Positions 6,909 through 54,737 of a stretch of DNA of 57,180 bases are shown in pieces; position 1 is the first letter of the stretch; the number at the start of each line of letters is the position of its first letter. The notes beneath the pieces were generated by a model. It was not told the DNA's origin, did no database searches, and saw only the letters and a list, made by a program, of their open reading frames with translations. Both the position numbers and the translations under genes were made by a program. Source of the stretch: a virus; the IMG/VR virus record IMGVR_UViG_3300032282_004138, positions 1 through 57,180 of that record, one strand, 5' to 3'.

Positions 6909-9900
6909 TTAAGCAGATCTAAAGAAATAGTTTTTTTTCAATTTATTAATTGCCGTTTTACCAGGTATGATACCAAAGTAATAATAAGGTACGTTAGCTC
7001 TAACATTAGGGTTGTTTCTACTACCTCTGTTAATGTATCTATCCCACCCATCATTATCGGCCTCATCAATATCAGGGCTACTAACACCAGCAGTATTAGT
7101 ATTAATCCAATTATTAGCTGGTTGACCGTAACAGTTTGATGGGTTATTACCACAAGGACTAAATCTACTACCTGTTAATTTATTTACAAGGAATCCTCCA
7201 TAAGCTGGTGGGTCATTAACTAAATCAGCGTATGGGGTTGTAGTACCACCTGGTGGGTTAAACTCATCATTATTGTCAACTTCTTGGTCTACATGGATTT
7301 TAGAAATTTCTTTCATGAAAAAAGTTGGGTTATCTTTTAATTCAAATTCATGACAAGGATATCCGTCTATTAAACCACTACCATAAAATAGTTGTCTTGG
7401 GTTACAATTGTTTTGTTTAAGTAAATAAAATAATACTTCTTGTGGACTTTGATATGAGGTTTCTTGTAAATAAGATACCCAAAAACCTGGATCCCAACCG
7501 TTCTCATAAAAAGTACCAGTATAAAAATTAGGGTTTTGTGCGTAAGTGTGTAAAGCTTGTCCTGCTTGTGATGCCGTACTAATTTCTTCTATAGCCTCTT
7601 CACACATTTCAATTCTACCTACCGAAACAATTTTAGTTGACATTAATGCATTACAATAAATTATATCGTTAACATCCGCGGCTCCATTATGGGTTTTACC
7701 GTTAGAGTCTGGTACTAGTGAAGCGTTTTGTGCTCCCACATGATAAGCACCTAAAACATCACCACTTCCATTATAATAAGCATATAAACAAGCTGCACAA
7801 TAAGGTGATAAAGGTCCGGTAGCTAAACAAGCTGCTACACAAGGTCCAAGAAGTCCTGTACCAGCGGAAGGATCTGTACCTTCATTAGGTCCTCTAAGTA
7901 AACATTTTGTACATTCACCAACAAGAGTTGCTGTATTAAAATTAGCTTTAGTATCTAAACAACAATTGTTATTACCATAGTATTTACCTCTTAGTTGGTC
8001 AGCACCAGGTCCACAAAATTTTTCTTTAGAACCACTTTTATTCTTTTTGTATTTAAATTGGAATAGATAAGCTGTACCAAAAACCCAAGCGTCATTAAAA
8101 TTTCTTCTAATAACGTTTCTTTGTTCAGCGGCTCTTAATTTAACACAACACTTCCAATTAATTAAATCTTGTAAACAAATATTATCGGCAGTGTTTATAC
8201 CTGTAGTTTCTACTTTAAAACAGAAATTACATGAAGAACAAGGATTACCACTTGGGCAGTTACAAGCGAAAGTACTTCCACCACAACTATTAGGGTTACA
8301 ACTAGCCCATGTACCACCAGTAGAAGGCACATCATATCCCTCCCCATTTGGGGCATCTTCACATGGAAGTGTAAATTGTGGTATTAACCCACCCAACCAA
8401 GCGAATGGACATATCTGATAACAAAAATCTAATACTGTTATATTAAACCCTATGTTAACCTTAACAACCGTAGTACCCCAACTAATAACAAGTCTTGCAC
8501 AAAATTGAATGCATATACTGACCAATATAATCAGTAGTTTTAAAATAAAGGCAACTACGTCAATAAAAAATGCTATTATGTAATAAACAATATCAAACTT
8601 CCACACCGCATTAGTAAATGGAAATAAATTAGTTTCAGCACTAACATCGGTATTTTTAACACCTAAGAAACTAAATCTGTTGGCACCTAATTTATATTTT
8701 TTGATATAATGGGCAATAGTATATAACTGTTTCCATTCAAAAGTGTGGAAATCTAAAAATATTCTAGCGTTTGGGTATATGGTTGTATCGTATTCTGTTA
8801 TATCGTCGGTCCATCTTTGGTCTTGTGTACCGTTAGCTTGAGCTATATTAGCGGTATCTACCATACCTTGCGTTCCACCAAAATCAACTCCTAAACTTGG
8901 GAAAAATATTGTGGCAGTTCTATACTTAGGGTTTTCGTTTGGCTCGGTAAATTTCATTTTGAGTCTGTACATCCCTTTTGTTGCAATACCAATAGAAGGA
9001 TCAGCCGAAGGTACCAAATTACCGAACTCGTCGGTAATTACATGAGCCAAATTCATTGGTACAGGAAAAGTGAATGTACCGTCTGCGTCTATTAAATCAC
9101 CACCATTTATACTCCATTTCTCTAAACTCGCAGGTGTAATATTACCATTGTTGTACCAATCAAGTGGGTCGTAATCTTTAACCCTTATCATGTCGATACG
9201 TCCTTCTCCTGTTTTAAGATTATCTTCTTCACCCATATCATTTTTTGGGTTACACCCTTTATTAATACTCGCCTTACCTGAATCAGTAAAAATAGAACCA
9301 AAAAATAAAGCTGTTGTTCTAATTTCAAAGTTGGTGTCAAAGTCTACTCTCGTAATACCTATTTCACAATTTTCTGTATCACCCCAAAATGGAATAATAT
9401 CTACACCTATGTTACCAGATTTTATTTGTGGTAAAGAATCTAAGTTTGTAGCCGTTTTAAATTCCGCATTAGAATCAAAAAGTTTTTCAGGATAACCGTT
9501 TGCTATCATATCATACGGTCTAACACTTGCTGCACCAGCATCACTTAAGTCAATGTCCATATGTATGGTGTACTGACCTACGGGTGCCCCAAAAATCATA
9601 AAATCACCCGCATTATTTGTTTTTGTAGTATATTTGTAATACTTGTCAAAAACTTCTAAAACAGTGTCGTTATCTAAAACTTCTTGTTTTGTAGGAAAAG
9701 TACCCACAGGTTTGTTTAAAAAACAAGTTGTTTTTGATAATAAAAGGTTATAACGAATATTATCTTTCTTTTGATATGGTGTCTTAAAAGGGTATAAATC
9801 TTTTATTAAAGTATTTTTTTGGTCTTCGTCAGTAATCGGGATGAAAACTGAAATTTTAGCGTTAGGTAAACCAAAACCTTTGTTTGCTATAACTCTACCA

Positions 9901-10058
9901 ACAACTACACCATAGTTAGAACAAAAAGTTTGGTATAAATCTTCTTGGCTAATTTTAAGACTCATGATTTCAAGGAAATCAAAGTCCTGTTCCAATTTGA
10001 CTCTAATATTACTACTATTACCTGGAGTTGTTCTTATTCTAATTGATTCGTTCGCCAT
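6909..10058 (-). CDS. Large virion protein with carboxypeptidase-regulatory-like N-terminus, hydrophobic segment and Cys-rich region (1049 aa)
   Basis: Residues about 50-165 resemble a carboxypeptidase-regulatory or CNA-B-like beta-sandwich: GVVVGRVIANKGFGLPNAKI, then a GDFMIFGAPVGQYTI strand pair. At about 483-530 there is a long hydrophobic run (IVYYIIAFFIDVVAFILKLL and onward) able to span a membrane once or twice. Directly after it comes a cysteine-dense region (about 540-640, with CNPNSC, CNCPSGNPCSSC and CNFC). Such a segment is unusual in a soluble virion protein and suggests contact with the host envelope. The start is coupled to the upstream gene by TAATG at 10058. Its place in the baseplate/appendage operon supports a structural role; the exact function is unknown. 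Confidence 0.7.
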   Translation of the reverse strand: MANESIRIRTTPGNSSNIRVKLEQDFDFLEIMSLKISQEDLYQTFCSNYGVVVGRVIANKGFGLPNAKISVFIPITDEDQKNTLIKDLYPFKTPYQKKDNIRYNLLLSKTTCFLNKPVGTFPTKQEVLDNDTVLEVFDKYYKYTTKTNNAGDFMIFGAPVGQYTIHMDIDLSDAGAASVRPYDMIANGYPEKLFDSNAEFKTATNLDSLPQIKSGNIGVDIIPFWGDTENCEIGITRVDFDTNFEIRTTALFFGSIFTDSGKASINKGCNPKNDMGEEDNLKTGEGRIDMIRVKDYDPLDWYNNGNITPASLEKWSINGGDLIDADGTFTFPVPMNLAHVITDEFGNLVPSADPSIGIATKGMYRLKMKFTEPNENPKYRTATIFFPSLGVDFGGTQGMVDTANIAQANGTQDQRWTDDITEYDTTIYPNARIFLDFHTFEWKQLYTIAHYIKKYKLGANRFSFLGVKNTDVSAETNLFPFTNAVWKFDIVYYIIAFFIDVVAFILKLLIILVSICIQFCARLVISWGTTVVKVNIGFNITVLDFCYQICPFAWLGGLIPQFTLPCEDAPNGEGYDVPSTGGTWASCNPNSCGGSTFACNCPSGNPCSSCNFCFKVETTGINTADNICLQDLINWKCCVKLRAAEQRNVIRRNFNDAWVFGTAYLFQFKYKKNKSGSKEKFCGPGADQLRGKYYGNNNCCLDTKANFNTATLVGECTKCLLRGPNEGTDPSAGTGLLGPCVAACLATGPLSPYCAACLYAYYNGSGDVLGAYHVGAQNASLVPDSNGKTHNGAADVNDIIYCNALMSTKIVSVGRIEMCEEAIEEISTASQAGQALHTYAQNPNFYTGTFYENGWDPGFWVSYLQETSYQSPQEVLFYLLKQNNCNPRQLFYGSGLIDGYPCHEFELKDNPTFFMKEISKIHVDQEVDNNDEFNPPGGTTTPYADLVNDPPAYGGFLVNKLTGSRFSPCGNNPSNCYGQPANNWINTNTAGVSSPDIDEADNDGWDRYINRGSRNNPNVRANVPYYYFGIIPGKTAINKLKKNYFFRSA

Positions 10059-15758: not shown

Positions 15759-18700
15759 TTATGGTATGATAGTACCTACAGTACAATAAACTACAGGTGT
15801 TCCATTAATATTTTGATACAAAATTCCATTATATTCAAAGAATGGGCTTGTTAAAAAAGTTGTTAAACCAGAATCTGTATACACTTTTGGTGTTGTTGCC
15901 GGTGTGTAACCACTAGGTACGTATACTTGATATTGATTCCCTTGAAGATATGTGTTGGTGGTTATCCCATTATTGTAGGCTCCACAAACATTAACTAAAT
16001 TTCCTGAAATAACGGTTGCTGCGGACGAAAGATTACCAGTTTTTACTATGTAAATTGTTGGAACTGGTGTTGGGGTGCATTTGTTTAATGATGTGTTCCA
16101 AGTAAATCCGTAATCAATACAACATTGTTGTGATAAATCAACGTTGGCTGATGTAGAAGAAATTTCTTGAATAAACGAACCTAACTCGTTAGTAACCTGA
16201 ATTAAATTATTAGGACAAGATGAACAATAAGAGTATGACTGAGCCGTTGTGTAACCTGGCATATCTAAGAATGTTGTTGTTGTACCGTTTATTGTTAATG
16301 ATACGTTATTGTTACCCGTAGAAACTGGGGATACCCAATACTGAGTGCTTTGATTACAACAAGCCTGTGTTACTAAACTATTATTTACTGTATTAAACCA
16401 AACATGAGTATTAGGTGAAACTTGTGGAGTACCACAAGGATTTGTAGAAGGTATTATACATTTGTTACTATCACCTATTAAACTCCATGTACCACCTCTT
16501 AACTCACAACAAGCCTTATTACTTATTTCTTTATCATTACTATCTAATAATAAACAACCATATGTATTAAAAAATGGTGTATATATGTTTGAGATGAAAG
16601 ATTCTGGTGTTATCATAAATGGACCTGAAGTACCCCAACCTAAACTTATTGCTAATTGTGTGATTTGTGTTGTTGTTAATGTTGCCAAATAATCGTTAAC
16701 ATTACATATTGTTTGTATAGTATTTTGTGGGGGACACCAATAACAAACATAATTAGGTATCGGAGTTACTGTTTGACTTCCATCCACACTTCTAAGTAAG
16801 GTTGTACCGACTGGAGTTCCTCCGACAGTCCCAGTCCCAGTCCCAGTCCCAGTCCCAGTTCCTGTACCAGTACCTTGTGGTATAACACATTTTTTAATAT
16901 TACCATCCCAAGCAACATCAAAACCTAATATAGCCTTTGAACAACAAGCTTGAGATACGGTAAGGTTGGTCGCTCCATCTAAAACAACATTATTAGTGTC
17001 TACTAATGTATTTGATGCGGATGGACAAACCGGTGGGTTAACCGTTATAGGTAACCAATAATTTTGACAACAATTTTGTGCGGTAAGATATACTGTATTA
17101 TTTGTATCAATATAAACAACACCGTCAGGGCCAAAACTTAATTGATACACCCCACAAGGATCACAAACGTTTTTGTTACCAGCGGTGAAACTAATTTTCA
17201 TTGAATATGTGTCGCCACTAGGTACACCGTAATTTGGGGCGTTGTTACCTCCTACATAAGTTAAACCGGCTGAATTGACAACGGCGTTATTTACAGAGCC
17301 ATTATTTAAAACATTCGCGTATCCAGTACCATAATAAGGTACGGGTAACCCGTTTTGGTCGAAGATAAAAGTACCTTCGTTGTAGTTATTAAAATAATTT
17401 TCATTAACAGTAATAAGTGTAGAACCTGTTAATAAATCATTAAAATTTGGTACGAAACATTCAAATTGTGTAAAATAGCTTTTACCAAAATCATAAGGGC
17501 CAATATGTGGGTTGTTACCTATAGCTGATGTATTACCACCGTTATACCAAAAACCATCCATTTGAAAATAATTGTCTAAATTTTCTGGTAAAATCCTAGG
17601 AAAACCATAAGCATCCATAGGGTAGTTAGCTAAACTAACTGTTTGGTCGGCTAAACCGGAAACTTCAAATATTTTAACTAATTGATTATAAGTTTCATTA
17701 ACATTTAATTTGTTTTCAGCCAAGTATACGTACTCATCTAATGTAATCATACAACCTGGTATGTTAAATAAATTAAAGAAAAACTCTATAACCTTTCTAG
17801 TACCCTTTGATTTCCATAACCACCAAGCGTTTATAACTAATCTCCTCCAAAGTTCTATATCTAATTCTTTAGCCGACAAACTTCTTGAATACCCACTGAA
17901 TGGTGTTTGAAAAGAAGGTTTTGTTTGTTCTAATAAATCAAAATTGTCTGTGGTGACAGTTAATAAAACGTCAAAACCTAAAGTTTTAGCCATCATTTTT
18001 ATTAACTCATCGGAGGTATTATCAAGTTTATTGTATGTTACTACATTAGCAAAAGAAATACCATCAATATATTTTTTAACTTCATCATATTCTCTACCAT
18101 ATATTCGTAAAAGTTTTGAAACTTTCATCCCATATATCTCATCACCAATTGCGTTTGCGGTACCACCGTTTGTATCAAATTCGTGAATAGATTCTGATAC
18201 AAATCTTCTTGACATTAAGTCGGTTTTATATTTATCAAAATTGTTTGCCGCGTCTAAAAGAGTTTGTATGTAATTAGCGTAATCACGAGTGTTAATATCA
18301 AGATTATAACTATCACTAACAGGCCATGTAAAACTTTCAGATGTATAATAAAAAACGCCTTCAGATTCTCTTGGTACATCAAATTTTGCTGTATATATTG
18401 GTGTTACTAGTCTATTTAATAAAACTTTTTCAAAATCACTTAATTGTTCAAAAAATAATTGTACCTCGTTAGCGTTAGGTTTTAAGTGATACGTAATTTG
18501 ACCAAAAGTTGAGGCGGTTAAAGATGGGAATGGGTTACCTTTAGTTTGTATAGAAATATATTGGTAGTTATCTGTAGATCCTGTGTAACCTATAACAGGT
18601 ACTTCTTGATTAGTACTAACATTCCATATAACGTATTTGTTATAATCTCTTGAAAGGTTGTATATTTCACCTGCAGGTAAATCAATAAAATTTGTGTTAT

Positions 18701-19214
18701 AATCAACATTTAATTGAAAATTATTAATTATGACACTTTTAGGTATTAAAAAATTAGCTATATCATTACCACTATCATAACTGAAAGAAAGTACTGTATT
18801 AACAATAGTGTTTGTATTAAAGTACGGGTCTAAATAAACAGACCCTTTCCAATTTTGGATGATATCTTCTAACGTTACCCTTGTAAATTCATAAAAACTA
18901 CCGAAATAAACATACCTATTAATATTAAAAGGGTTGAAGTTTAATCTAATAAAAATATCATTAGATAATAATATATCCGATTCTGTTTGTGTTAAATTTA
19001 AATTTTCTAAAGAGTAATAGTCCGACCACTGTCCACCTAACGTAAAATTAACGTTTAATCTAGGATCTAAATTAGTTGTAATCTCAAAATTACCAAAAGT
19101 GAAAAGAGAGGACCCGTTGGTAAACTGTAACCCAACTAAATTTGGCGCAAAGTCACCCTCACGTCTTTTATACGCATCGGTTAATGAACGGGGTGTTACT
19201 CTAACATTTCCCAT
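15759..19214 (-). CDS. Baseplate wedge/tail protein I-like protein fused to Cys-Cys modules (1151 aa)
   Basis: Residues about 450-490 (ELWRRLVINAWWLWKSKGTR, then VIEFFFNLFNIPG) match the core of P2 gpI-type tail proteins, where a Trp-x-x-KGT motif precedes a helix and Phe-Gly turn. This suggests a baseplate wedge component that carries the distal fibres. From about 690 on, the protein changes character. It contains a (Gly-Thr)n linker with VGTTLLRSV and at least five Cys-Cys modules such as VSQACCSKAI, SNKACCELRGG and LSQQCCIDYGF. These are the same module types as in the next downstream protein. The gene begins with a TAATG junction at 19214. The fusion of a wedge-like core with adhesin-like modules is the unusual feature. 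Confidence 0.7.
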   Translation of the reverse strand: MGNVRVTPRSLTDAYKRREGDFAPNLVGLQFTNGSSLFTFGNFEITTNLDPRLNVNFTLGGQWSDYYSLENLNLTQTESDILLSNDIFIRLNFNPFNINRYVYFGSFYEFTRVTLEDIIQNWKGSVYLDPYFNTNTIVNTVLSFSYDSGNDIANFLIPKSVIINNFQLNVDYNTNFIDLPAGEIYNLSRDYNKYVIWNVSTNQEVPVIGYTGSTDNYQYISIQTKGNPFPSLTASTFGQITYHLKPNANEVQLFFEQLSDFEKVLLNRLVTPIYTAKFDVPRESEGVFYYTSESFTWPVSDSYNLDINTRDYANYIQTLLDAANNFDKYKTDLMSRRFVSESIHEFDTNGGTANAIGDEIYGMKVSKLLRIYGREYDEVKKYIDGISFANVVTYNKLDNTSDELIKMMAKTLGFDVLLTVTTDNFDLLEQTKPSFQTPFSGYSRSLSAKELDIELWRRLVINAWWLWKSKGTRKVIEFFFNLFNIPGCMITLDEYVYLAENKLNVNETYNQLVKIFEVSGLADQTVSLANYPMDAYGFPRILPENLDNYFQMDGFWYNGGNTSAIGNNPHIGPYDFGKSYFTQFECFVPNFNDLLTGSTLITVNENYFNNYNEGTFIFDQNGLPVPYYGTGYANVLNNGSVNNAVVNSAGLTYVGGNNAPNYGVPSGDTYSMKISFTAGNKNVCDPCGVYQLSFGPDGVVYIDTNNTVYLTAQNCCQNYWLPITVNPPVCPSASNTLVDTNNVVLDGATNLTVSQACCSKAILGFDVAWDGNIKKCVIPQGTGTGTGTGTGTGTGTVGGTPVGTTLLRSVDGSQTVTPIPNYVCYWCPPQNTIQTICNVNDYLATLTTTQITQLAISLGWGTSGPFMITPESFISNIYTPFFNTYGCLLLDSNDKEISNKACCELRGGTWSLIGDSNKCIIPSTNPCGTPQVSPNTHVWFNTVNNSLVTQACCNQSTQYWVSPVSTGNNNVSLTINGTTTTFLDMPGYTTAQSYSYCSSCPNNLIQVTNELGSFIQEISSTSANVDLSQQCCIDYGFTWNTSLNKCTPTPVPTIYIVKTGNLSSAATVISGNLVNVCGAYNNGITTNTYLQGNQYQVYVPSGYTPATTPKVYTDSGLTTFLTSPFFEYNGILYQNINGTPVVYCTVGTIIP
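16827..16874. repeat. Hexanucleotide tandem repeat encoding a Gly-Thr linker
   Basis: The plus strand has five exact copies of AGTCCC (16827-16856) followed by three degenerate copies to 16874. On the coding minus strand this encodes alternating Gly and Thr inside the 1151-aa tail protein. Since the unit is six bases, gain or loss of copies would keep the reading frame and only change linker length. Confidence 0.85.
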
Positions 19215-20110
19215 TATAATGTTGGAACGTTAGTAATTGTATTGAAGTCTTTAGTGAAATCAATATTATTAACCAATTGGCGAACTTCGTGTAAAGGTTC
19301 TCCTGTAAATTGGTCTTGAATTTCGTATAGATTGTATTGTTTATAGATACGATTAGCGAAATCATAAATAGTGTACTTACCATCGGCAATAGATTTAATT
19401 TGGTTGCCGTAAATACCGTAAGCCAATGTTTCGATATCGTATTCAACCATATCTATTTCCAATATGATTGGATTAAAAAATGTGTTTGTAATAGATATTT
19501 CTTGAGCTGGACTACCGATATCAGGAAATTGATTTGGTCTAACATTTGGTGCCGAACTTGGTGTCAAAGTACAAAATACTAAATTAGATGTGTCATTAAA
19601 TCTATATCTAACAGCCTTTTGTGTTGTATTTGATAAATTAGCATTTACAGGTTCAGTCCTATTGGCTGATGTTATAACCCTAAAAAAATTAGGTATTCTT
19701 TGTCCCACATTGTTATAGTATTCAACACGATACCCAATCAAACTGGAAGCGTCTTGGATTCCTAAAGTGTTCATATCTAAAACAATACCTTTAATATCAG
19801 GAAAAGCAGCTAACACGCCACAATCAGTTATTTTAGTTCTAATCTCTTTTGGTCTTATGATAATATTGTAAATACCTTTTGCTGAAAAGTTAGCTACTGG
19901 TAGTTGTAAATTATAAAGACCGTCAAATAAAGGTACACCATTAGTTACAGGTGTTGGGTGATTAAATCTTGTTATTACTTGACTTGGTGTTAATTTTTGT
20001 AATGGTAGGGTTGGTGCAACATCTCTTGATGGAGTATATGTAAAATATATTTCCATATCATCTACCGTTACTGTCGCTGGTCTAACTATACCGTAATTTC
20101 CTGTTGCCAT
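19214..20110 (-). CDS. Hypothetical baseplate-operon structural protein (298 aa)
   Basis: I do not recognise the family. The 298-aa protein is mixed alpha/beta with little low-complexity sequence, unlike its adhesin-like neighbours. It begins MATGNYGIVRPATVTVDDME and has a C-terminal segment (YGIYGNQIKSIADGKYTIYD) that looks like a compact folded domain. It lies directly before the tail protein I-like gene and is joined to it by TAATG at 19214, with a three-base gap to the upstream gene. That placement suggests a baseplate wedge or connector subunit. No enzymatic residues stand out. Confidence 0.6.
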   Translation of the reverse strand: MATGNYGIVRPATVTVDDMEIYFTYTPSRDVAPTLPLQKLTPSQVITRFNHPTPVTNGVPLFDGLYNLQLPVANFSAKGIYNIIIRPKEIRTKITDCGVLAAFPDIKGIVLDMNTLGIQDASSLIGYRVEYYNNVGQRIPNFFRVITSANRTEPVNANLSNTTQKAVRYRFNDTSNLVFCTLTPSSAPNVRPNQFPDIGSPAQEISITNTFFNPIILEIDMVEYDIETLAYGIYGNQIKSIADGKYTIYDFANRIYKQYNLYEIQDQFTGEPLHEVRQLVNNIDFTKDFNTITNVPTL

Positions 20111-20113
20111 ATT

Positions 20114-20554
20114 TTATGTTGTTTGTGTAACGTTATAATATCCGTTTCTATATTCTATTAATCCTTGTAATGTTGTTATCTCCGACAACCTAGATTGTCT
20201 CTCAAAGATAGCTACATTCATTCTTTCTATAAATAGCTCGTTATTAACTTTTGGTGGGAAAACTAATCCCATTTTAGCTTCTTCTTTTATATCAAAAGTA
20301 TTTTGTTTGTTTGGAAAAACAATATAAGGTTCAAAGTCATAACCTGAATAGTATGTAAAAAAAGTTGTCACTAAACTAGGTAGTTGTGTAACATAGTTTA
20401 CACTATCAATTGTATATGAAACCGAAGTTATTCCAGTTAAATTTGTTGGATCGTAGGTGATATTTGTCACCCCATTGACACCAATTTGATATGGGTTTGT
20501 GAGACTATATGTTCTTACTAAATCTAATTTATTTGAAGTAAATCCTGTTATCAT
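20114..20554 (-). CDS. Hypothetical baseplate-operon protein (146 aa)
   Basis: This unrecognised 146-aa protein has a Thr/Tyr-rich beta-like first half and a helical, charged C-terminal half (NNELFIERMNVAIFERQSRL). It sits between the SprB-repeat protein (one-base gap) and the 298-aa protein (three-base gap), so it is almost certainly co-transcribed with tail genes. It could be an adaptor linking the repeat protein to the baseplate. That is inference from position only. Confidence 0.58.
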   Translation of the reverse strand: MITGFTSNKLDLVRTYSLTNPYQIGVNGVTNITYDPTNLTGITSVSYTIDSVNYVTQLPSLVTTFFTYYSGYDFEPYIVFPNKQNTFDIKEEAKMGLVFPPKVNNELFIERMNVAIFERQSRLSEITTLQGLIEYRNGYYNVTQTT

Positions 20555-20555
20555 A

Positions 20556-22490
20556 TTATACGTTCATTGATGAAGTTATTGTACAACCGTTAGCGTCTAC
20601 CACTTTAACAGTTAAGAATTGATATCCTACTCCTCCCATGTAAGTACAGAAAGGATTAGATACAATACCGTTACCCCAAGCAACGTTTGCCGGAGTCATA
20701 GTCCACGTTATATTATATGGTGTTACCCCACCATTAACACCTACTATAGCCTGTAAACAAGGTCCAACATTGAGACCTGTACAAGCCGGTGTACATCCTG
20801 ACATAATATTGATTATATCAATATTAGTTGTATATGGAGCTAAAGGTCCACTAGTAATTGTGTTACTACCAACAAAGCTTAATGGCATTGGTGGTTGTGT
20901 TAATGTGACAGTTGTTGTTGCAGAACAGTTTAGATAGAAAGGAACTGGTCCTCCAGCGGTCGCTGAATCGACAACAGTTATGGTATGATTACCCGCGTTT
21001 ACGTTTGTTAATGTTACAGTTCCAGGTCCAACAGCAGTTGTTTTTAATACACCATCAACATAATACTTCATACTATTAGATGGTACAGAATATGTGGTTG
21101 CATCTGATGTATAACTAGATGTAACGGTAATAGCTGTTGTAGCACTAAAACAACGTATATTGTAACCATTGAATGTAGGTGGTGTTGCCACACTTACACC
21201 TAATAAAGGTCTTTGTTTTATAGTAACAGTTTGTGTAGGTCCTGTACAATTAATATTATCATGTATTGTCATTGTATAAGTACCAGTAGGTAAATTATTT
21301 AAAGTAATAGGTCCGGTCAATGTTTGAGTAGAACCAGGATAGCCTCCACTTGATGAAGAAATGTTAACCGTATAAGGTGAAACTCCCCCGCTTGGTGTCA
21401 ATGTGATAATACCTGTTGAACTATCGTAACAACCTGAGTCTTTATATGTTACACCTAAATTAACTGCGATTGGTTGTGTTATAGATACAGGTAAATTTAT
21501 AATGTTACCAACATTGTCTGATATTTGTACATTATAACAAGGTGATGAACCAGGACAAGCCAATAAATTATTAAATGTTGCTCCAGCGGTACTACCAGTG
21601 ATTGTTTGTGGTGTTGGTCCTGTTAAAATATAATTATATCCATTAGGGTGTACACCTCCAGATGCCGCAACACTAATAGAACCTGTATTACCACCTGCAC
21701 AACTAACATTAGTTGTTGTTAATACACTACCTGAAATTGGTTGTGGTTCTGTTATAGTAAATAATCCCGAAACAACAGTACTACTAGCGTCAATAACTTG
21801 TACATTGTAAGTACCGGCACAAAGATTTGTAACACTTGTTGTTGATGAGTTTGTTCCCGGTAACACATTACTTGTATTACCTGAATACCATAGGTATGTA
21901 TAAGGTGGTTGACCCCCTTGGATTGTCACATTTGCACTACCATTACACCCACCAGGTGTTGTTACATTAGTTTGTGAATTATTAGAATTTAATGACAAAT
22001 TTAAGCTTTGAGGTTGTTGTAGATAATAAGTACCATAACTAATGTCACAATTACTATCTGTTATTTTTACCGTATATAGTCCAGCGGCAAGGTTATTCAT
22101 ACCAGCTGTTAAATTGGTTGATGTGAAACCTCCAGGTCCAGTCCATTGAACAGTTGTTGGGCTAGCTACAAAAGCACACCCAGAAACATTTGCCGTTAAA
22201 GTACCGTTATTAGCATTAAAATAAGTTATAGGTGTGGATGTAAAATTAATAGTACAGTTATTTAAAATTAAACAAGGTTTTTGATAAGCGGTTCCCGTGT
22301 TACCTGTTAAATCCCAAACACCAGATAAATTAACAATTTCATAAACTGGATTGTCAGTATCAGTATATATACCAATATCTTCAAAATTTTGTGTCAATAA
22401 AAATGGGAAATATAAAGTGGTAGCAGTAACAACTAAATTTTCAGTTCTACCAAAATCTTCATAACCAACTTTTCTTTTATATATTTCCAT
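20556..22490 (-). CDS. Tail protein with SprB-type adhesin repeats (644 aa)
   Basis: After about 95 residues of unique sequence the protein is built of roughly six repeats of about 85 aa. Each runs Cys, a Gly-Ser/Thr-rich strand, GGxxPYTYxW or similar, a Leu-x-x-GTY strand and a Val-x-Asp before the next Cys. The clearest copies include GGQPPYTYLW with CAGTYNVQVIDA, and GGVSPYTVNI with LPTGTYTMTIHD. This matches the SprB repeat family, named for the Flavobacterium gliding adhesin and widespread in Bacteroidota. In a phage baseplate operon it is probably a fibre or adsorption protein. The gene starts with a TAATG junction at 22490. Later repeats are degenerate. No signal peptide or type IX secretion tail is visible, so it is not a host surface gene in transit. 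Confidence 0.78.
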   Translation of the reverse strand: MEIYKRKVGYEDFGRTENLVVTATTLYFPFLLTQNFEDIGIYTDTDNPVYEIVNLSGVWDLTGNTGTAYQKPCLILNNCTINFTSTPITYFNANNGTLTANVSGCAFVASPTTVQWTGPGGFTSTNLTAGMNNLAAGLYTVKITDSNCDISYGTYYLQQPQSLNLSLNSNNSQTNVTTPGGCNGSANVTIQGGQPPYTYLWYSGNTSNVLPGTNSSTTSVTNLCAGTYNVQVIDASSTVVSGLFTITEPQPISGSVLTTTNVSCAGGNTGSISVAASGGVHPNGYNYILTGPTPQTITGSTAGATFNNLLACPGSSPCYNVQISDNVGNIINLPVSITQPIAVNLGVTYKDSGCYDSSTGIITLTPSGGVSPYTVNISSSSGGYPGSTQTLTGPITLNNLPTGTYTMTIHDNINCTGPTQTVTIKQRPLLGVSVATPPTFNGYNIRCFSATTAITVTSSYTSDATTYSVPSNSMKYYVDGVLKTTAVGPGTVTLTNVNAGNHTITVVDSATAGGPVPFYLNCSATTTVTLTQPPMPLSFVGSNTITSGPLAPYTTNIDIINIMSGCTPACTGLNVGPCLQAIVGVNGGVTPYNITWTMTPANVAWGNGIVSNPFCTYMGGVGYQFLTVKVVDANGCTITSSMNV

Positions 22491-23317
22491 TATTGCATAA
22501 CAAGTTCAGATAGTGTTATTATCGTAGGTGTATTAGAACCAAAAGGTACTATGGGGTTAAAATTAAAATTACCGTTATTTAATTTAGGGTTTAATATATT
22601 AATACCACTTGTACGCCAATCTCTATTACTAGGGTTACTATAATCTGTCGGGGTTAAAGGTACTGTGGGTGAAGGAATTGGTGGTGCAGGGATGTTTATA
22701 AATTTAACTACTTTACCAGTTTTAGCATTAAAAAATCTAGCATCCATATAAACGGTTCTATTAGTATTATTTTTTACAAAAAAATCATCATTTCTTAACC
22801 AATATAATCTATTGAAAGGTATGACAGGTTTTTCAGTGGCATAAACATTTAAATCTTCAGTAAAAATTAAGTTATTTGTGTCACCACTATTTGTATCATA
22901 AAAATATAGTCTAAAAAAACTCTTTTTAAACCCATTTCTATTTTTATTTATATCTAAACTTGTAAAAGTTTGTGGGGTGTAAGATAAACTATAAGACGAA
23001 GTGGTATCATCCCAAAACCTAAATTGTAACAATAAACCCTGATTATTATTAACCAAAGGGTTATTGTAAATATATTTTGTTGTTTCAGCATCAAATGTGG
23101 GGTTGATGGCCTTTTCTCTTTCGGCTAAAACAATATCCATTAAATCTTCGCCGTAATCTACAGGGTAAAATTCAGTTACAATAGGTACTTGTATAAATTT
23201 ACTAGCAGTAGTTGCACTAATAGATACCGTTTGAGCAACGTTAGTTACACCACTAACCGTTATTGTTTGTGCAGTTATTGTTTTAAAATCGTTCCTTATC
23301 TGATATTTTATTAACAT
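22490..23317 (-). CDS. Hypothetical baseplate-operon protein (275 aa)
   Basis: This is an unrecognised 275-aa protein with beta-rich, aromatic and Asn-rich sequence (RLYWLRNDDFFVKNNTNRTV) and a proline cluster at about 225-240 (PAPPIPSPTVPLTP). Its first seven bases overlap the end of the upstream 625-aa gene (23311-23317), and its end forms a TAATG with the SprB-repeat gene. The tight packing supports expression with the tail genes. It may be a connector between the wedge proteins and the repeat-bearing fibre. No domain assignment is possible by eye. Confidence 0.6.
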   Translation of the reverse strand: MLIKYQIRNDFKTITAQTITVSGVTNVAQTVSISATTASKFIQVPIVTEFYPVDYGEDLMDIVLAEREKAINPTFDAETTKYIYNNPLVNNNQGLLLQFRFWDDTTSSYSLSYTPQTFTSLDINKNRNGFKKSFFRLYFYDTNSGDTNNLIFTEDLNVYATEKPVIPFNRLYWLRNDDFFVKNNTNRTVYMDARFFNAKTGKVVKFINIPAPPIPSPTVPLTPTDYSNPSNRDWRTSGINILNPKLNNGNFNFNPIVPFGSNTPTIITLSELVMQ

Positions 23318-25188
23318 TCTTCTTTTATACTTTTTATATATCTTGCTGCTGATTGGTCTATTAAATCTGTAGGTTTTTGTCTCCTTACATATAAATTATA
23401 ATTAAAATAAATATAATGAGCCGTATTAAGAAAAGGGTAATCAACACCATTGTACCCCTCCTCAAAATAACCTTCAGTTAATAAATCTCTCCAAGCTATA
23501 GAACCGTCTGGGTATGTCTCATAATTTGTCGGTATATCTACTATAATTTCATTAGGTCCTGCCGTTTCTATATTTAAAGAATATTTTCTTAATTCTAATT
23601 TTTTAAACGGTTTATAATAATAACCCTCACCATCAGGGTTGGTATTAATACCAAATCTGTGTACAACTTCTGAAACTGTTCTTTCTAATAGTTCAGCTGA
23701 ATTATAATCAACAAAATCACCAACATATTTACTACCAGGTGTAGACACAATATCACCGTTAGAATTTACGCTCTCTACTCTTGATGTAGCTTTTTCAACA
23801 CTACCTATGCCAGTAGAATTATATTGTGATATTAATTCTATCGCACCACCACCTAAATAATTAGTGTTTATGGATTGATAATTATAATCCCAATCGGATG
23901 TTACATTTGACCATATATAAGGGTTTTTACCGGCTCTTTTTACTATAGTATAATATACTTCGGTTACAGGACCGTTTCTGTTGGTTACTAAATTTTTAAT
24001 ATCAATATCTTGATCGAATTGAAATAACCATGTGTCGTTGACAGAACCAATTGTAACATCGGAAGTATCAGGGTAAATATTGGAACTGTAGGAACAAGGG
24101 TATACACTGTATTCGTTTGAAGTTATAACCTCAAATTTTCTAACGTAATATTCTGATGGGGTACCGTCTAATTTTCTAAATGTTGGGTAAGGTGTTGAGT
24201 AATTAAAATTTGTGCCTTTAGTTACGGGTGATAATGAAGGACTAGTTCTAATAATAAACTGTGTTGAACCTGTACCACCAATAACATTATAAACTCTCCA
24301 TACACCATTTAATGAACCTGAAGCACCCATTCTTATATCGACAAAATCGTTGACTAATAGATTGTGTGGTGTAGGTGTTTTTATTCTAGCATATATTGGT
24401 TCATTTATTGCAAAAGAACCTGTCGTACTTCCACTTATATCAGTGGCAGTTGATAGTATAAAATTTGATGGTGAATTAAAACTTGTGTCGTCAGCAGAAG
24501 GTTGATACATTCTAACAAAATTACCTGTACCTAAAGGTATCATGGTTGGATCTATTATAACATCTAAAGTTAAATCCTTTTTAAGGTTATTTCCATCAAT
24601 GCCTAAGTTTTTAATTTTATAAACACCTTGTAAAGAATTATATGAAATATAACTATATAAATAAACATAATCATTTTCGGTTAAGTTATGATTTTGTACA
24701 CCACTTATTGTTAAATAATTATCATTATTTATAAGTGTGGTACCTAAATTTAAATACTGTAAACCACGATATGCTTGTGAACTTGCAACAACAGTACCAC
24801 CTGTTACTCTTGATGTTATATTAAAATTAAAATCTGAATCAGAAGGGTATGTTATTTGCATAACCCAATTACTTGGTGCAACAGGTGGGTTACCATAAAA
24901 CATTGGGCTCCATGCTGAATCATTATATTTTCCGTTTACATATGCAGTTGAGTTGGGTGACAAAACATTAGATGTATAAAGATTGAATTTCCCACTGAAC
25001 CTATATTTTTTAGAAGCTTCTCTTTCGTCTAAAAAAACTTGGTATTGGTTGACTATATCTATAATATCGTATTCAGTCAGGGGTTTAGTCTTTTCCTCCA
25101 ACCCTAACTGTATATTAGTATTAGTGTTTTGTGCTAGTTTATACCTAGCACTACCAATTAAATTTGTAAAACTATTTATATCCATCAT
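23311..25188 (-). CDS. Baseplate wedge-associated structural protein (625 aa), unrecognised
   Basis: This gene follows gp6 directly (TAATGATG at 25188), the position held by gp7/gp8 in T4. The 625-aa protein is beta-rich (Tyr, Asn, Ser, Thr) with a helical N-terminus containing YDIIDIVNQYQVFLDEREAS and a C-terminus with paired aromatic strands. I see no motif that ties it to T4 gp7 or gp8, so that equivalence is positional only. It could also be a structural spacer specific to this phage group. The start uses the first of two ATG codons; either could be correct. Confidence 0.62.
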   Translation of the reverse strand: MMDINSFTNLIGSARYKLAQNTNTNIQLGLEEKTKPLTEYDIIDIVNQYQVFLDEREASKKYRFSGKFNLYTSNVLSPNSTAYVNGKYNDSAWSPMFYGNPPVAPSNWVMQITYPSDSDFNFNITSRVTGGTVVASSQAYRGLQYLNLGTTLINNDNYLTISGVQNHNLTENDYVYLYSYISYNSLQGVYKIKNLGIDGNNLKKDLTLDVIIDPTMIPLGTGNFVRMYQPSADDTSFNSPSNFILSTATDISGSTTGSFAINEPIYARIKTPTPHNLLVNDFVDIRMGASGSLNGVWRVYNVIGGTGSTQFIIRTSPSLSPVTKGTNFNYSTPYPTFRKLDGTPSEYYVRKFEVITSNEYSVYPCSYSSNIYPDTSDVTIGSVNDTWLFQFDQDIDIKNLVTNRNGPVTEVYYTIVKRAGKNPYIWSNVTSDWDYNYQSINTNYLGGGAIELISQYNSTGIGSVEKATSRVESVNSNGDIVSTPGSKYVGDFVDYNSAELLERTVSEVVHRFGINTNPDGEGYYYKPFKKLELRKYSLNIETAGPNEIIVDIPTNYETYPDGSIAWRDLLTEGYFEEGYNGVDYPFLNTAHYIYFNYNLYVRRQKPTDLIDQSAARYIKSIKEEC

Positions 25189-27005
25189 TAAGATTTAGTT
25201 CTAACTTTAATATCACTACTTGGGAATTTAATTTCAAACATTGTGTCATACTCAGCAAACAACACATAATCAGATGTTAAATCAATTTCTCTTGTGATTT
25301 GGTCTGTATAAGCTTGTGATGTTGCATTAGCGGAATAGTTACCACCAACTTTATTAAAAATTTTAATATCAACAACGTTTAAGACACCTGCAACATTATT
25401 GACCGCCTCGACTAATTGAGCCATGAATATGTTTTGTCCCATTTGCCATTTTTTAATATCAAAATAGTCCTTAACCGTATTAATAGTATTATTAACAATT
25501 TCTCCTTGGTTGAATGCTTTATCTGTATATAAATCTATTTGAAATGCTAGATTAATTATTTTACCATCTCTAATTAAAACATAATCATTTATCATTCTAT
25601 AATCAGCTAACCATGTGGCCATATTTTCTTTTAAAGTGTTTGTTGATGAATTGTCTAACTTACCTGTGGAATCTAAACCTAAAATAGCAAACTCAACTTT
25701 GTTTTGATTCTCAGCAACTTGCATCCTAAAAGGAACACCAAATTTTCCTGGCATTTTAAAAATAGTTGCTACATAATCCTTAATAGTTACAGCTCTATTT
25801 TGTGACGCAAAATTATATTTTGTCATATATCTAACTTCTTCTATAGAAGGATCATCAGCACCACCAAAAGCTGGAACAGGATTATTAACTCTTAATGAAT
25901 TTCTAACCGCCTGATTATTTGTGGCTGTAGGTCCATTTATGACCATTTCAGTAAATCCAATTGAGTTTATAGTGTTAGACCCAATATTTGCTCCAGCTCC
26001 ACCACCAACACGATATCTAATAAATAAAGTTGTGTTAGGTTTAGGTATCTCACCCAAAGCCGTACTATTAAAAAAGTTAGCTATTTGTAAGATGTATTGG
26101 TCATTTGTATAACTTTGTAAATATTGTTTGTCAGAAAAACCAGAACCAAAGGTCATTTTACAAAAACCCGTATCTGTATATTCTTTAATAAACTTTCTTG
26201 TAACAGGCATCCATTTACCCGGCATTATACCACTGTTGTCTGTACTTCTTGTTGGGTCATCAATAAAAATTTTATCTTCCGCTAAAGAGTCTACTTCATA
26301 CCATCTTATATTAGGGTTAACAAATTCCGATGTTGTTGGGTTTGTATTGAATGTGGTGCCGTCTTTTGTTATAACCTGTTCAACTGAAACTACGTTGTTG
26401 TCTGGTAGGATAACTTCTAAAAAAGGTATCGAATCGTTTGGGCCTAAAACTTTTTTAAATACTTTTGTCACCCCATTACTAACAATTTCTCTTTTAACTA
26501 AAGTATAATTTGTAATTTGGTTATTAGCGTTTATAACAGGGATAATTAATCTGTTAGGTATACCTCCTGCGGAGTATGGTGAAGAAAAATCAATATCGTC
26601 TAAAGTTTCAAATGTTTGGCCTCCACCAACAACTTGAGCTCCAAATTTAATTATAGGTGCGTATCTAATATCAAATGTATCACCAAACACTGGGACAGTA
26701 ACAGAAAAATCCACTAAAGTGATAGAAGAACGTTTACCAGGTACTTTTAAACCTAAAGTTCTAGCTATATTCATAATAGACCTTCTTTCTTGAGCGTAGT
26801 CTATTTGAGTTTCGGTAAACATTCTATCAGTGTGGTACGATAACATGTCAGCCGTAGCAGCATTTAATTCAATTAACATTGTACCAATAGAAGCATCATT
26901 AAAGTCTTGATACAATTCTGGGTAAAAATGTTTTACATAATTTATTAATTCAGTTCTTACATCTAAGAAATTTCTCGCGAAGTAATTTATTTTTTTTTCT
27001 GCCAT
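25188..27005 (-). CDS. 6: Baseplate wedge protein gp6-like (baseplate J family)
   Basis: The 605-aa product is close to the length of T4 gp6 (about 660 aa). It begins with the conserved N-terminal region containing INYFARNFLDVRTELINYVK and DASIGTMLIELNAATADMLS, the helix pair that starts gp6/J-type wedge proteins. Another recognisable element is the central VRYMTKYNFASQNRAVTIKD, the counterpart of the J-family sequence that precedes the C-terminal dimerisation region. gp6 proteins form the inner ring of the baseplate and change conformation when the sheath contracts. It lies next to gp25 (four-base gap), the same neighbour as in T4. Confidence 0.88.
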   Translation of the reverse strand: MAEKKINYFARNFLDVRTELINYVKHFYPELYQDFNDASIGTMLIELNAATADMLSYHTDRMFTETQIDYAQERRSIMNIARTLGLKVPGKRSSITLVDFSVTVPVFGDTFDIRYAPIIKFGAQVVGGGQTFETLDDIDFSSPYSAGGIPNRLIIPVINANNQITNYTLVKREIVSNGVTKVFKKVLGPNDSIPFLEVILPDNNVVSVEQVITKDGTTFNTNPTTSEFVNPNIRWYEVDSLAEDKIFIDDPTRSTDNSGIMPGKWMPVTRKFIKEYTDTGFCKMTFGSGFSDKQYLQSYTNDQYILQIANFFNSTALGEIPKPNTTLFIRYRVGGGAGANIGSNTINSIGFTEMVINGPTATNNQAVRNSLRVNNPVPAFGGADDPSIEEVRYMTKYNFASQNRAVTIKDYVATIFKMPGKFGVPFRMQVAENQNKVEFAILGLDSTGKLDNSSTNTLKENMATWLADYRMINDYVLIRDGKIINLAFQIDLYTDKAFNQGEIVNNTINTVKDYFDIKKWQMGQNIFMAQLVEAVNNVAGVLNVVDIKIFNKVGGNYSANATSQAYTDQITREIDLTSDYVLFAEYDTMFEIKFPSSDIKVRTKS

Positions 27006-27009
27006 AATT

Positions 27010-27396
27010 TTATAATTCTAGTACTACAAAGTCTGATGATTGTAACGCTGAAATAGTTACAACATAATCAATTTTAACGACTGTAGTGTGTATGTTATCC
27101 TCTGAGGGTGTAACTGTTAATTGGGTAACTTGTAAATTGGGTATAAATTCTTTGATTGCATTATTTATTTCTGTTCTGATAGCATTAGCGGATATCTCGT
27201 CGTTTGGTTCAAAAAGATATTGTCTTAGATTGGCCCCAAAACTTGGTAGGTACAATCTTTCTCCTTTGTTTGTTAATAATAAATGAACTAAATCTGATTT
27301 TATTGCCTGTTTGGCATCGGTATTCATTTTCAAAAACTTACCATCTGGGTCGTCTTGAAATGGAAATTGAATATTTATGTAATTTTTTTGTGCCAT
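27010..27396 (-). CDS. 25: Baseplate wedge protein gp25-like
   Basis: At 128 aa this matches the length of T4 gp25 (132 aa) and TssE/gpW-type wedge proteins. Diagnostic sequence includes HLLLTNKGERLYLPSFGANL followed by an LFEPND turn and a helix, with a beta-rich C-terminus. In the family the GER and EP residues help tie the wedge to the sheath initiator. It starts the gp25-gp6 operon and has a GATATTTATA element only six bases upstream of its ATG. The strong RNR-side terminator just before that element isolates it transcriptionally from the replication block. Confidence 0.9.
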   Translation of the reverse strand: MAQKNYINIQFPFQDDPDGKFLKMNTDAKQAIKSDLVHLLLTNKGERLYLPSFGANLRQYLFEPNDEISANAIRTEINNAIKEFIPNLQVTQLTVTPSEDNIHTTVVKIDYVVTISALQSSDFVVLEL

Positions 27397-27586: not shown

Positions 27587-29446
27587 TTATTTAATTTCAC
27601 AAGCTCCGTTTGAACAGGCCAATTCACCACTTAAATTAGTATCGTCATCTAATTCAATGATTTTTGTTAAATCAACATCTTTCAAACTTTTCATTAAGTT
27701 ATCGTATGTTTCTTTTGTACAATCTTCAAAAGGTGCTTGAGTGTAAGTTCCACCGTCATAAGGTAATACCGAAAGACCATTATAAGAATCTTTATTTTCC
27801 CACATCCAATCACCAACTAATTCCCATTCATTTTCTTTAACCGAAATTGTTGCTGATACGTTATGTGTGTTTGAACCACCTCTATGCCCTGCTTTAACCC
27901 ATTCTGTAGAAACTTTTTTTACACGTTCCAATAATTGGAATACTGATTCTGTTCTCATAATAGCTCCTTCAGGTGCCTTTTGTGGAATAGAAATTACTGC
28001 TGTATCATGTGGACGGAAATATTCATCTTCAACTAATTCAGGGTGATAGATTGAAAGGTATGTGTAAATGGCCTCATTCTTACCAACACGAATACGACGA
28101 ATGTAATAGTCATTATGCCAAGCGTGAATACCTGATGAAGTTCCTAAAACTAATGAAGAAGTTCCTGAAGGTTTAACCGTAGAAGTTCTTGCTGCTTTGT
28201 TAATACCTAATAAACCAGCTACTCTTTCGTTTTCTTCTTTTACCGCTTTAGCTCCTTTTTTCATGTCATAACCTAATACAACACCAGACCCAATACCAGT
28301 CATTCCTACACCAATTAAGGCATCTTTTTCAGTTGTACGTTTCCATACATCACGAAGATAATGAAAGTCTGTATAACCTGCCTGAAGAGTTCCAATGAAA
28401 GATGCTGCTTTAACTCTTTCTTCAAAATCTTCTTGGGAAGTAATATCAGATGCATTAACTTCACAAAGATTACAGAATTGGTATGGTCTTAACCCAATTT
28501 CACAACAAGGATTAGTTCCCCAATCTTTATCATTAGAAAGGTAAATACCAGGTTCACCAGCTCCAGATAATTCAATACGTTTCCATAAATCCATAAAGTA
28601 TTCTTTAGTAACTTTATGTCTCATTAATACGGCTGAGTTATTAGCTCTACCTCTTTGTGCATTTAATTCCCACCAATTTCCTGATTTACAAGAAATCATT
28701 TCATCATCGTCAGCAGAAAACAAGCTAATAAGAGCTGCTCTACGAATACCACCTGCAAGTACTGCATCTGCGATATAACAAACAATGTCATGTACTTCAA
28801 TCGGTTTAAGTTTGTCACCATCTTCTTTGTTATCTAATACTTTTTTAATGTTATGTAAACAATCTTTTAAAGGTTGAGGTCCTGGGGCTTTACCACCTGA
28901 AGTAACTAAACGAGCTCCTTTTGGACGAATATCGGAAAAATCAAAAATAGGTGTTGATGACTTGGCTCCAAAATAAGACTCTAATAATACTTTGATTGAA
29001 TCAGCCCATCCTTCGATAGAGTCACCAATTAAATATCTTCTTGTTCTATTTGAACTTGGTTTTTTGATTTCAGGTAATTTTTCTACGTGGTGTTTTTGAA
29101 CTGAGTATCCAACTCCAGTCCCACCTAACAATAAGAACATTGCTTCAGAAAAAGAATCTACGTGGTCAATTGGCATATAAGCGCAATTGTAAATTCTGTT
29201 TGGAGAAATTTCGATGGGTTTACCACCAAACTGTAAACTTCTCATTGAAGGTAAAACTTTCTTGTCATAAACAAGTTTGTAAACCTTTTCAATTTCTTCT
29301 TTTAATTGTGGGAATTTCTTTTGGTGCATCTCTTTGTTTCTTGTCACCAATTCTTCCCATGTTTCCCTACGATTTAATTCGGGGATATATTTTGCGTACT
29401 TCATATAGACAGTAATGTCCGAAAGTAATTTACTCGACAATTCCAT
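27587..29446 (-). CDS. nrdJ: Adenosylcobalamin-dependent (class II) ribonucleotide reductase
   Basis: The 619-aa protein carries all active-site positions of monomeric class II reductases (Lactobacillus leichmannii RTPR type). NCAY at 87-90 gives the first redox Cys (88). NPCCEI at 312-317 gives the radical Cys314 and Glu316. FCNL gives the partner Cys325, spaced 11 residues from Cys314 as in RTPR. A C-terminal CSNGAC pair (611/616) shuttles reducing equivalents. It converts ribonucleotides to deoxyribonucleotides using vitamin B12 and works without oxygen. It is shorter than RTPR (about 740 aa), so part of the allosteric region is probably reduced. No NrdA/NrdB or thioredoxin gene is in the window. 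It lies at the end of the replication operon. Confidence 0.92.
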   Translation of the reverse strand: MELSSKLLSDITVYMKYAKYIPELNRRETWEELVTRNKEMHQKKFPQLKEEIEKVYKLVYDKKVLPSMRSLQFGGKPIEISPNRIYNCAYMPIDHVDSFSEAMFLLLGGTGVGYSVQKHHVEKLPEIKKPSSNRTRRYLIGDSIEGWADSIKVLLESYFGAKSSTPIFDFSDIRPKGARLVTSGGKAPGPQPLKDCLHNIKKVLDNKEDGDKLKPIEVHDIVCYIADAVLAGGIRRAALISLFSADDDEMISCKSGNWWELNAQRGRANNSAVLMRHKVTKEYFMDLWKRIELSGAGEPGIYLSNDKDWGTNPCCEIGLRPYQFCNLCEVNASDITSQEDFEERVKAASFIGTLQAGYTDFHYLRDVWKRTTEKDALIGVGMTGIGSGVVLGYDMKKGAKAVKEENERVAGLLGINKAARTSTVKPSGTSSLVLGTSSGIHAWHNDYYIRRIRVGKNEAIYTYLSIYHPELVEDEYFRPHDTAVISIPQKAPEGAIMRTESVFQLLERVKKVSTEWVKAGHRGGSNTHNVSATISVKENEWELVGDWMWENKDSYNGLSVLPYDGGTYTQAPFEDCTKETYDNLMKSLKDVDLTKIIELDDDTNLSGELACSNGACEIK

Positions 29447-36626: not shown

Positions 36627-37082
36627 ATGAAAAAAGAAACCAATCACGAACTTACTTCTGAAAGCTTAAAAGATTTTATCTTTGCTGGCACAGCTATCTT
36701 TACTGTTGTAAATGAAAAAACAGGTAATCGTTTTACTTACCGTGTTCGTAAGGCTGGTTGGGGTACCCTTAACGTTAAATCGGATATTTTTTATGTTTCA
36801 GTATTAACGGGTTCTGATAATAACTCTTGTTATACTTTTTTGGGTAGTTACTTTGGTGGTAAAAATCAAATGTACCGTCACTCTCAAAAAAGTAAGATTG
36901 GTGGTTCTTCTGTTTCTAATAAAGTAATCGAATGGTTTTTTCAAAATTATTTTAAAAACCCAAATGTTTACACAACAGTTAAAGTTTACCATTCAGGTAA
37001 ATGTGGTAAGTGTGGAAAAAAATTGACCACCCCTGAGTCAATCAAGAGTGGTCTAGGTCCTTACTGTGGTAAAAGAAATTAA
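36627..37082 (+). CDS. DUF6011-like protein with C-terminal zinc ribbon (151 aa)
   Basis: One of only two clear plus-strand genes. The N-terminal part has the pattern RFTYRVRKAG, FYVSVLTGSDNN, YTFLGSYFGG seen in phage DUF6011-type proteins. The C-terminal CGKCGKKLTTPESIKSGLGP with a final Cys forms a treble-clef or ribbon-like zinc site (three visible Cys). The function of this family is unknown. Its stop codon overlaps the stop of the convergent 2341-aa gene in a shared TTAA (37079-37082). Confidence 0.75.
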   Translation: MKKETNHELTSESLKDFIFAGTAIFTVVNEKTGNRFTYRVRKAGWGTLNVKSDIFYVSVLTGSDNNSCYTFLGSYFGGKNQMYRHSQKSKIGGSSVSNKVIEWFFQNYFKNPNVYTTVKVYHSGKCGKCGKKLTTPESIKSGLGPYCGKRN

Positions 37083-53797: not shown

Positions 53798-53986
53798 TTA
53801 TTTTCTTTTTGATTTTGCTTTATCATATTCTTTCTTTTGTTCCTCTAATTCTTTTTGCCATAAATCAAGATAAATTCTTCTTTCCCACACAGGCATATTT
53901 TGAACTGATTCATAAGAAAATTTCATATGTTTTACCATATAATAAATTTCTCTTTTAAGACCTAAATTATAATCTGACGTTAGGCC
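53798..53986 (-). CDS. Frameshift extension of the tail assembly chaperone (gp26-like partner)
   Basis: A second open frame continues from the end of the gp26-like gene in the +1 (equivalently -2) frame. It encodes 62 residues, including KREIYYMVKHMKFSYESVQN and MPVWERRIYLDLWQKELEEQ. The stop is at 53798-53800. If translated alone it would start at the ATG at 53938 (46 aa). The pattern of a helix, then a Met-Pro-Val-x-x-Arg-Arg turn and a charged C-terminal helix resembles the small partner encoded before tape measure genes in many T4-like phages. That partner is often produced by programmed frameshifting. It lies just upstream of the terminator. Whether it is fused or separate cannot be told from sequence alone. 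Confidence 0.65.
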   Translation of the reverse strand, partial: GLTSDYNLGLKREIYYMVKHMKFSYESVQNMPVWERRIYLDLWQKELEEQKKEYDKAKSKRK

Positions 53987-54737
53987 AAAAAAAGTTGAGT
54001 CCGAGGGTAATTGGAGCTTGAAAGTTGCCTGTCGGACCCTCCACGTCCGCAGTCATATCAATACCAGGTTCAATAGAATCTGAATATTCTCTGAATTTAA
54101 GAGAATCATAAGCAGGCATTACATTAATAAATTGTTGAATAAAATTAATATCACGATTACCGTCGATTTCTTTAATTTGTGCTTGTAATCTATAAGTTAA
54201 TGTGTTTGAAATTTGTGACTTTGTAGCTTTTTCATATTTTTCTGAACGAGAAACGATAGACTTTTCATCAGCAACAGTTAAAAGTTTAAATTTAACTTTT
54301 CTTTTACTTTTTGGTAATAAAAAAGAAAATTCACCTTTTTCATCTGGTTGAACATCTTCAGGTAACTCTTTTGTTTTTAAAGCCGATAAATCAATCTCAG
54401 TTTCAAATTCAACACCACTACTTGGGTCAGTTAATTTAACAGGATACATTTCACCGTAACCTGTAGCACGTAACCAAATCATAATGGCATTTCTATCACC
54501 TACTAATAATTGGTCAAAAGGTACTGGTGATTCTTTAACTTTTCTTTCTAATAATATATCAAGAACTTTCCCACTCTTAATCAAGTTTGGTGATGTAAGA
54601 ATGTTTTCGTCCATTGCTGTCATATATTCTACTTTTACGTTACCTTGTTGACCAGGGTATAAAAGACCTCTTGAAGGCAAAGGAATGACATCAAATGGGG
54701 CTTGAAATTGAACTTCTTGTGTTTGTTGTTTTGACAT
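53967..54737 (-). CDS. Tail assembly chaperone / baseplate hub subunit gp26-like (256 aa)
   Basis: The 256-aa protein has the motif order of the T4 gp26 family. FDVIPLPSRGLLYPGQQGNV comes near the start, then VEYMTAMDENILTS, a GDRNAIMIWLRATGYGEMY segment at about 100, and a long Lys-rich C-terminal half. Members act in tail assembly, and many are extended by a frameshift. Near its 3' end (F249-F250) it has an unbroken run of seven U residues, and reading into the other frame gives the 62-aa extension. It is divergent from the plus-strand peptidase gene (160-base gap). A weak TAAGTTTT box lies upstream. Confidence 0.82.
   Translation of the reverse strand: MSKQQTQEVQFQAPFDVIPLPSRGLLYPGQQGNVKVEYMTAMDENILTSPNLIKSGKVLDILLERKVKESPVPFDQLLVGDRNAIMIWLRATGYGEMYPVKLTDPSSGVEFETEIDLSALKTKELPEDVQPDEKGEFSFLLPKSKRKVKFKLLTVADEKSIVSRSEKYEKATKSQISNTLTYRLQAQIKEIDGNRDINFIQQFINVMPAYDSLKFREYSDSIEPGIDMTADVEGPTGNFQAPITLGLNFFWPNVRL
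53987..53993 (-). other. Seven-U slippery run, candidate programmed frameshift site
   Basis: The coding strand has CAAC followed by T7 and GG, read in frame as AAC TTT TTT TGG in the gp26-like gene. Shifting by +1 (or -2, re-pairing UUU on UUU) enters the 62-aa extension frame with no stop codon. No zero-frame stop occurs until 53967. Position near the chaperone 3' end matches frameshift sites in other tail chaperones. Direction and efficiency are unknown. Confidence 0.55.

Follow-up and report, generated by a model that had tools for sequence, protein, structure and literature searches.

A baseplate-cluster gene with a constant head and six SprB-type repeats in a group of uncultured, probably Bacteroidota-infecting phages

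The SprB protein of Flavobacterium johnsoniae is a giant adhesin of 6497 amino acids (aa) (PMC9870892), and among T9SS-secreted proteins at large the repeat type named after it is enriched, for example beside polymorphic toxins (PMC7073777). On the viral side, gut phages that infect Bacteroidota have Ig-like proteins which, when displayed, mediate adhesion (PMC13370021). Phage proteins with SprB repeats have been noted before: proteins of uncultured Caudovirales in UniProt (A0A6J5LD72 and A0A6J5LDA4) already bear the annotation "SprB repeat", and such proteins, together with phage Ig-like proteins, are matched in a viral library by the protein described below. In the papers searched we found no discussion of phage SprB repeats, nor any analysis of the N-terminal head, the synteny or the exchange of repeats that are the subject of this work.

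The window, by which we mean the whole stretch of DNA analysed, comprises the 57,180 bases of a virus record in IMG/VR. The open reading frame at 20556..22490 on its (-) strand starts with ATG, has syntenic orthologues in related phages, and encodes a protein of 644 aa (hereafter the slot protein) that consists of a head and six SprB/Ig-like repeats. The similarity to SprB that a preliminary description had read from the sequence is confirmed by an HMM search, in which Pfam PF13573 matches the protein in 4 significant stretches (E 3.3e-19; 68.7 bits, cut-off 28), and six-frame scans found no SprB match elsewhere in the window and none in 14 control genomes. An HMM of 84 positions, built from phage repeats and covering the full repeat, turns the "roughly six" repeats of that description into exactly six, which occupy aa 77-644 and lie on the (-) strand (viz. 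repeat 1, aa 77-161, 22008..22262; repeat 2, aa 165-250, 21741..21998; repeat 3, aa 251-341, 21468..21740; repeat 4, aa 341-428, 21207..21470; the divergent repeat 5, aa 435-534, 20889..21188; and repeat 6, aa 546-644, 20559..20855). Residues 1-76 are not repeats. The Cys residues said to bound the repeats are only in part a feature of the family, a few being invariant across orthologues and many not conserved. Weak Pfam matches to Por_Secre_tail, CBM77, Y_Y_Y and fn3_3 all fall under the cut-off, and a search of the PDB with the slot protein sequence returned nothing.

An AlphaFold2 model of the slot protein (11 orthologues) has a mean pLDDT of 73.5. The larger part of repeats 3-5, all-beta, lies at about 85-93, and the head is predicted poorly. 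In Foldseek the model matches GhpA, the grappling hook protein of Aureispira, first (9flw, E 6.4e-14); Ig chains, titin and DSCAM among them, come next. The GhpA match has TM-scores of 0.2-0.4, low as a flexible chain would lead one to expect, and an identity of 14-19%. These matches support an Ig-like fold for the modelled repeats and nothing beyond it; with strands throughout the model, the all-beta Ig-like fold that had been anticipated is supported.

The slot gene is part of a baseplate cluster of the T4-like kind, so that its earlier assignment to a baseplate operon stands. The cluster contains, on the (-) strand, genes for a gp25-like baseplate wedge subunit (27010..27396; phrog_261, E 2.8e-24) and a T4 gp6-like wedge protein (25188..27005; phrog_219, E 1.1e-14), the latter 28% identical to its counterpart in Flavobacterium phage immuto and 30% to that in Microcystis phage Mel-JY01; a baseplate hub gene (phrog_150) is found at 53967-54737. 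Between the wedge genes and the slot gene are two genes recognised as conserved by synteny, B625 (23311..25188, (-)) and C275 (22490..23317, (-)), C275 being the upstream neighbour of the slot. Downstream, starting one base past the slot stop, is the gene for the 146-aa protein D146 (20114..20554, (-)), followed by those for E298 (19214..20110, (-)), a highly conserved cluster protein that we used as phylogenetic marker, and F1151 (15759..19214, (-)), a large protein with a variable C-terminus and with no match in Pfam and nothing significant in PHROG. I1049 (6909..10058, (-)) is a further cluster protein, free of SprB in the window. From its position in this cluster we infer that the slot protein sits on the tail. 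Elsewhere in the window, positions 27587-29446 encode a ribonucleotide reductase with class II (B12-dependent) domains, which is 94-99.5% identical among phages whose slot proteins are only 42-50% identical. Positions 37079-44104 encode a protein of 2341 aa, a candidate tape-measure protein or tail lysin, in which a peptidase/endolysin-like domain lies near residues 1994-2153.

With E298 as bait, at least 587 relatives were found in IMG/VR among the 599 pattern matches listed, and 80 of them were kept for comparison. E298 was found in 0 of 50,697 phage records, and since it is absent there, no isolate of the group is among those records; isolates with a homologue of E298 or I1049 were likewise not found in them. 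Conserved in at least 587 stretches of IMG/VR, E298 is the marker of a large, uncultured group of myovirus-like phages. Gene order is kept across this group, and the slot is the place between C275 and D146. The clade labels used here come from a quick E298 tree with SH-aLRT support only, and the slot states come from ATG-only ORF calls and contig fragments, 9 of the 69 rows being unscorable.

In clade A, in which E298 is 73-90% identical, the slot protein consists of the head and SprB repeats, and almost every full-length orthologue has six of them; the exceptions are L022, with five repeats, and L029 and L030, with three and a different C-terminus. Clade B slot proteins have the same head, but the bodies joined to it, which reach about 960 aa, show no match to SprB, and in one case (L034, 82 aa) there is little beyond the head. 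The clade B bodies of L035 (5659-8562), L038, L039, L041, L042 and L048 share a long Cys-containing region with the motifs SAQPV.. and YYGPFYDP.NPTYNGYGLAFSKAN, which in the two bodies scanned gave no Pfam match over the cut-off and weak EF-hand scores only. In clade C the head is joined directly to D146, and it is the I1049 homologue that bears SprB repeats, on its C-terminal side, an extension that all 24 scored clade C records have and none of the 3 other scored records has. L051 has a slot with head and SprB repeats, and L044 has such a slot plus the I1049 extension. The slot states cluster on the E298 tree, where they require 5 changes, and the I1049 extension requires 1; the tree is unrooted and gives these changes no direction of gain or loss of repeats in either slot. 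The gene is thus a syntenic slot in which the head persists and the body changes across the group. A further record, IMGVR_UViG_3300034198_015644 (G048; L090), holds 24 SprB matches in frames of 4836, 4115, 1545 and 629 aa.

The head (aa 1-60; 22311..22490, (-)), presumably the virion anchor, was followed through the group with an HMM trained on clade A heads alone. This HMM matches the clade B slot proteins, whose bodies are without SprB, the N-terminus of most D146 fusions in clade C (with E from 1e-5 to 3e-12), and stand-alone heads of 71-82 aa (viz. L034, 82 aa; L066, 75 aa; L082, 71 aa). A constant head with a variable body is how an anchored display module is built. The joining of head and D146 in clade C, read as gene fusions usually are, would mean that the two touch in the virion, which suggests that the head docks on D146, its presumed partner; in a low-confidence model of the head-D146 fusion (pLDDT 49) docking is not visible.

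The preliminary description had offered two origins for the repeats, capture from the host or long shared ancestry, and the position-wise inheritance of the repeats speaks for long residence in phages and against a recent capture. Repeats 1-5 of the window each have their best match in the same-position repeat of other phages (49-63%), as compared with about 30-40% identity to their neighbours in the array and about 33-38% to the best bacterial matches; repeat 6 behaves similarly with a mixed result, position labels shifting where a repeat was missed. In the repeat tree, positions 1, 2 and 3 form one group each (SH-aLRT 90, 98 and 93, respectively) and position 4 nearly does so. Because the repeats are inherited by position, the array is old in clade A. 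Recent capture from a host is rejected on this inheritance together with the low identity to bacteria, and the GC3 of the slot gene (0.155) is low like that of the rest of the window (0.166-0.224). A tree of phage and bacterial repeats together has too few columns to order which came first. A different case is seen in LR756502.1, an uncultured phage of 642 kb. There a 1670-aa ORF (L014 9118-14130, at about 514.4-519.4 kb) combines 13 SprB repeats with PKD_4 and with CHU_C, a signal for type IX secretion (E 5.1e-14), and its repeats are nearest to bacterial ones. It amounts to a whole secreted protein of host type within a phage genome and, unlike the slot protein of the window, looks like a captured host cargo gene.

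The bacterial contigs found to carry the array are all from Bacteroidota, which bears out the kinship expected for the repeats, and the host of the phage is probably a member of this phylum. The support is indirect, and the wedge protein, at 28% and 30% identity, points to a Flavobacterium phage and to a Microcystis phage alike. E298 was found in 0 of 396 Bacteroidota genomes, an uninformative outcome that a lytic phage would lead one to expect.

Within clade A, repeat-sized blocks have been exchanged. The sister phages L009 and L019 are 96-100% identical in nucleotides in all parts except repeat 4 (83%), where dS is 0.39 as against 0-0.14 elsewhere, and between L006 and L009 repeats 2 and 3 have dS of 0.51 and 0.67, as against 0.17-0.26 elsewhere. 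Since synonymous sites differ too, repeat-sized blocks have been replaced by recombination and not altered by rapid selection. Positive selection on the repeats was considered and is not seen, pairwise dN/dS in the repeats being 0-0.53. The slot protein as a whole is 41-50% identical to orthologues from phages whose E298 is 81-87% and wedge protein 75-85% identical, and against L004 and L009 it is the most divergent conserved cluster gene (42-50%; E298 86-87%).

Our favoured reading, to which we give a probability of about 0.6, is that the slot protein is an anchored, exchangeable Ig-like adhesion or spacer arm on the baseplate of a phage that probably infects Bacteroidota. The head of about 60 aa would plug into the baseplate, most likely against D146, and carry the six Ig-like SprB beads as an outstretched chain; these would contact the polysaccharide-rich surface of a Bacteroidota host, and their reversible adhesion would help the true receptor-binding fibres to engage. 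We infer the place on the virion, the adhesive role and the glycan ligand alike, and the adhesive role in particular is suggested by likeness to the Ig-like proteins of gut phages, an analogy and not a proof. Several points count against this arm. The SprB array is dispensable, clade B using other bodies or the head alone. The slot is not alone in diverging fast, since B625, C275 and F1151 are divergent as well (53-65% identity), and the repeats bear no sign of positive selection. Ig-like domains are also reportedly common on phages and are not known to have an essential role there (Fraser et al. 2006).

The same dispensability would suit a passive spacer or decoration, in which the beads would only set the length or solubility of a protrusion from the baseplate, or stabilise it, with no specific ligand; the unrelated bodies or empty heads of clade B, the purifying selection in the repeats and the generic nature of the Ig chains matched by the fold all agree with it. 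However, the bead number in clade A hardly departs from six, every position is separately conserved, and the swapping of repeat-sized blocks among sister phages is unneeded for a pure spacer, so that we regard this explanation as rather unlikely. A decoration of another kind is raised by the match of repeats 2-3 to phrog_2973 (E 1.2e-10), "Hoc-like head decoration", from which the slot protein would be a capsid decoration encoded in the baseplate cluster and no part of the tail. The match arises because the repeats are Ig-like, and it spans these repeats only; the head is fused to the baseplate-cluster protein D146 in clade C, and synteny with the wedge genes is retained, all of which makes a Hoc-like role most improbable.

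The preliminary description had further connected the repeats with the gliding adhesin of the host, whose sugars they might share, which they might mimic or with which they might interact at adsorption; as a mimic they would copy SprB to bind the same sugars or to interact with SprB filaments. Membership of the same repeat family and the restriction of bacterial relatives to Bacteroidota are in its favour, yet SprB repeats serve as building blocks in T9SS-secreted proteins of Bacteroidota generally and not in gliding adhesins alone (PMC7073777), and the best bacterial repeats are no closer than about 33-38%. No type IX sorting domain in the slot protein scores over the cut-off (Por_Secre_tail reaches 20.8 bits against 27 and lies inside a repeat at 124-147, and CHU_C does not match), no typical hydrophobic leader of a signal peptide is visible by eye in residues 1-30, and SprB has no match in immuto, the nearest of the phages whose host is a Flavobacterium. 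The link with gliding or adhesin mimicry is thus not supported, and we consider it very unlikely. A bolder variant, for which we see an even slimmer chance, is that the beads engage SprB-type fibres of the host, bead to bead or by way of a glycan common to both. The phage would then ride the moving adhesin or use it as a first receptor, and the replacement of repeats would track variants of the host adhesin.

If the slot protein is an anchored adhesion or spacer arm, the head would be a reusable anchor by which a widespread group of uncultured phages mounts, swaps and removes adhesion-type bodies, and a repeat of Bacteroidota surface adhesins would be tied to phage baseplates. Head and repeats offer a handle for guesses at the phylum of the host and for the search for adsorption modules among phages without isolates, and whether phages and hosts use the same adhesive beads becomes testable.

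Among known systems, the slot protein shares with the PF13573 SprB family a repeat sequence over the cut-off, the tandem arrangement and the Bacteroidota relatives, and it differs from SprB of F. johnsoniae in having six repeats, no T9SS sorting domain and a phage-specific head. GhpA of Aureispira (PDB 9flw, 9fly, 9flu) is the best fold match and a similar chain of Ig-like beads; however, GhpA belongs to a cell-surface device of a bacterium of the Bacteroidota, whereas the slot protein is viral. The Ig-like virion proteins of phages (Hoc, and the BACON/PKD adhesins; PMC13370021) have in common with it the tandem Ig-like domains, the structural context, the modularity and a probable part in adhesion. 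The slot protein is set apart from them by SprB repeats, a baseplate slot and a reusable head, and in the group described here such repeats are carried by two unrelated proteins of the same cluster.
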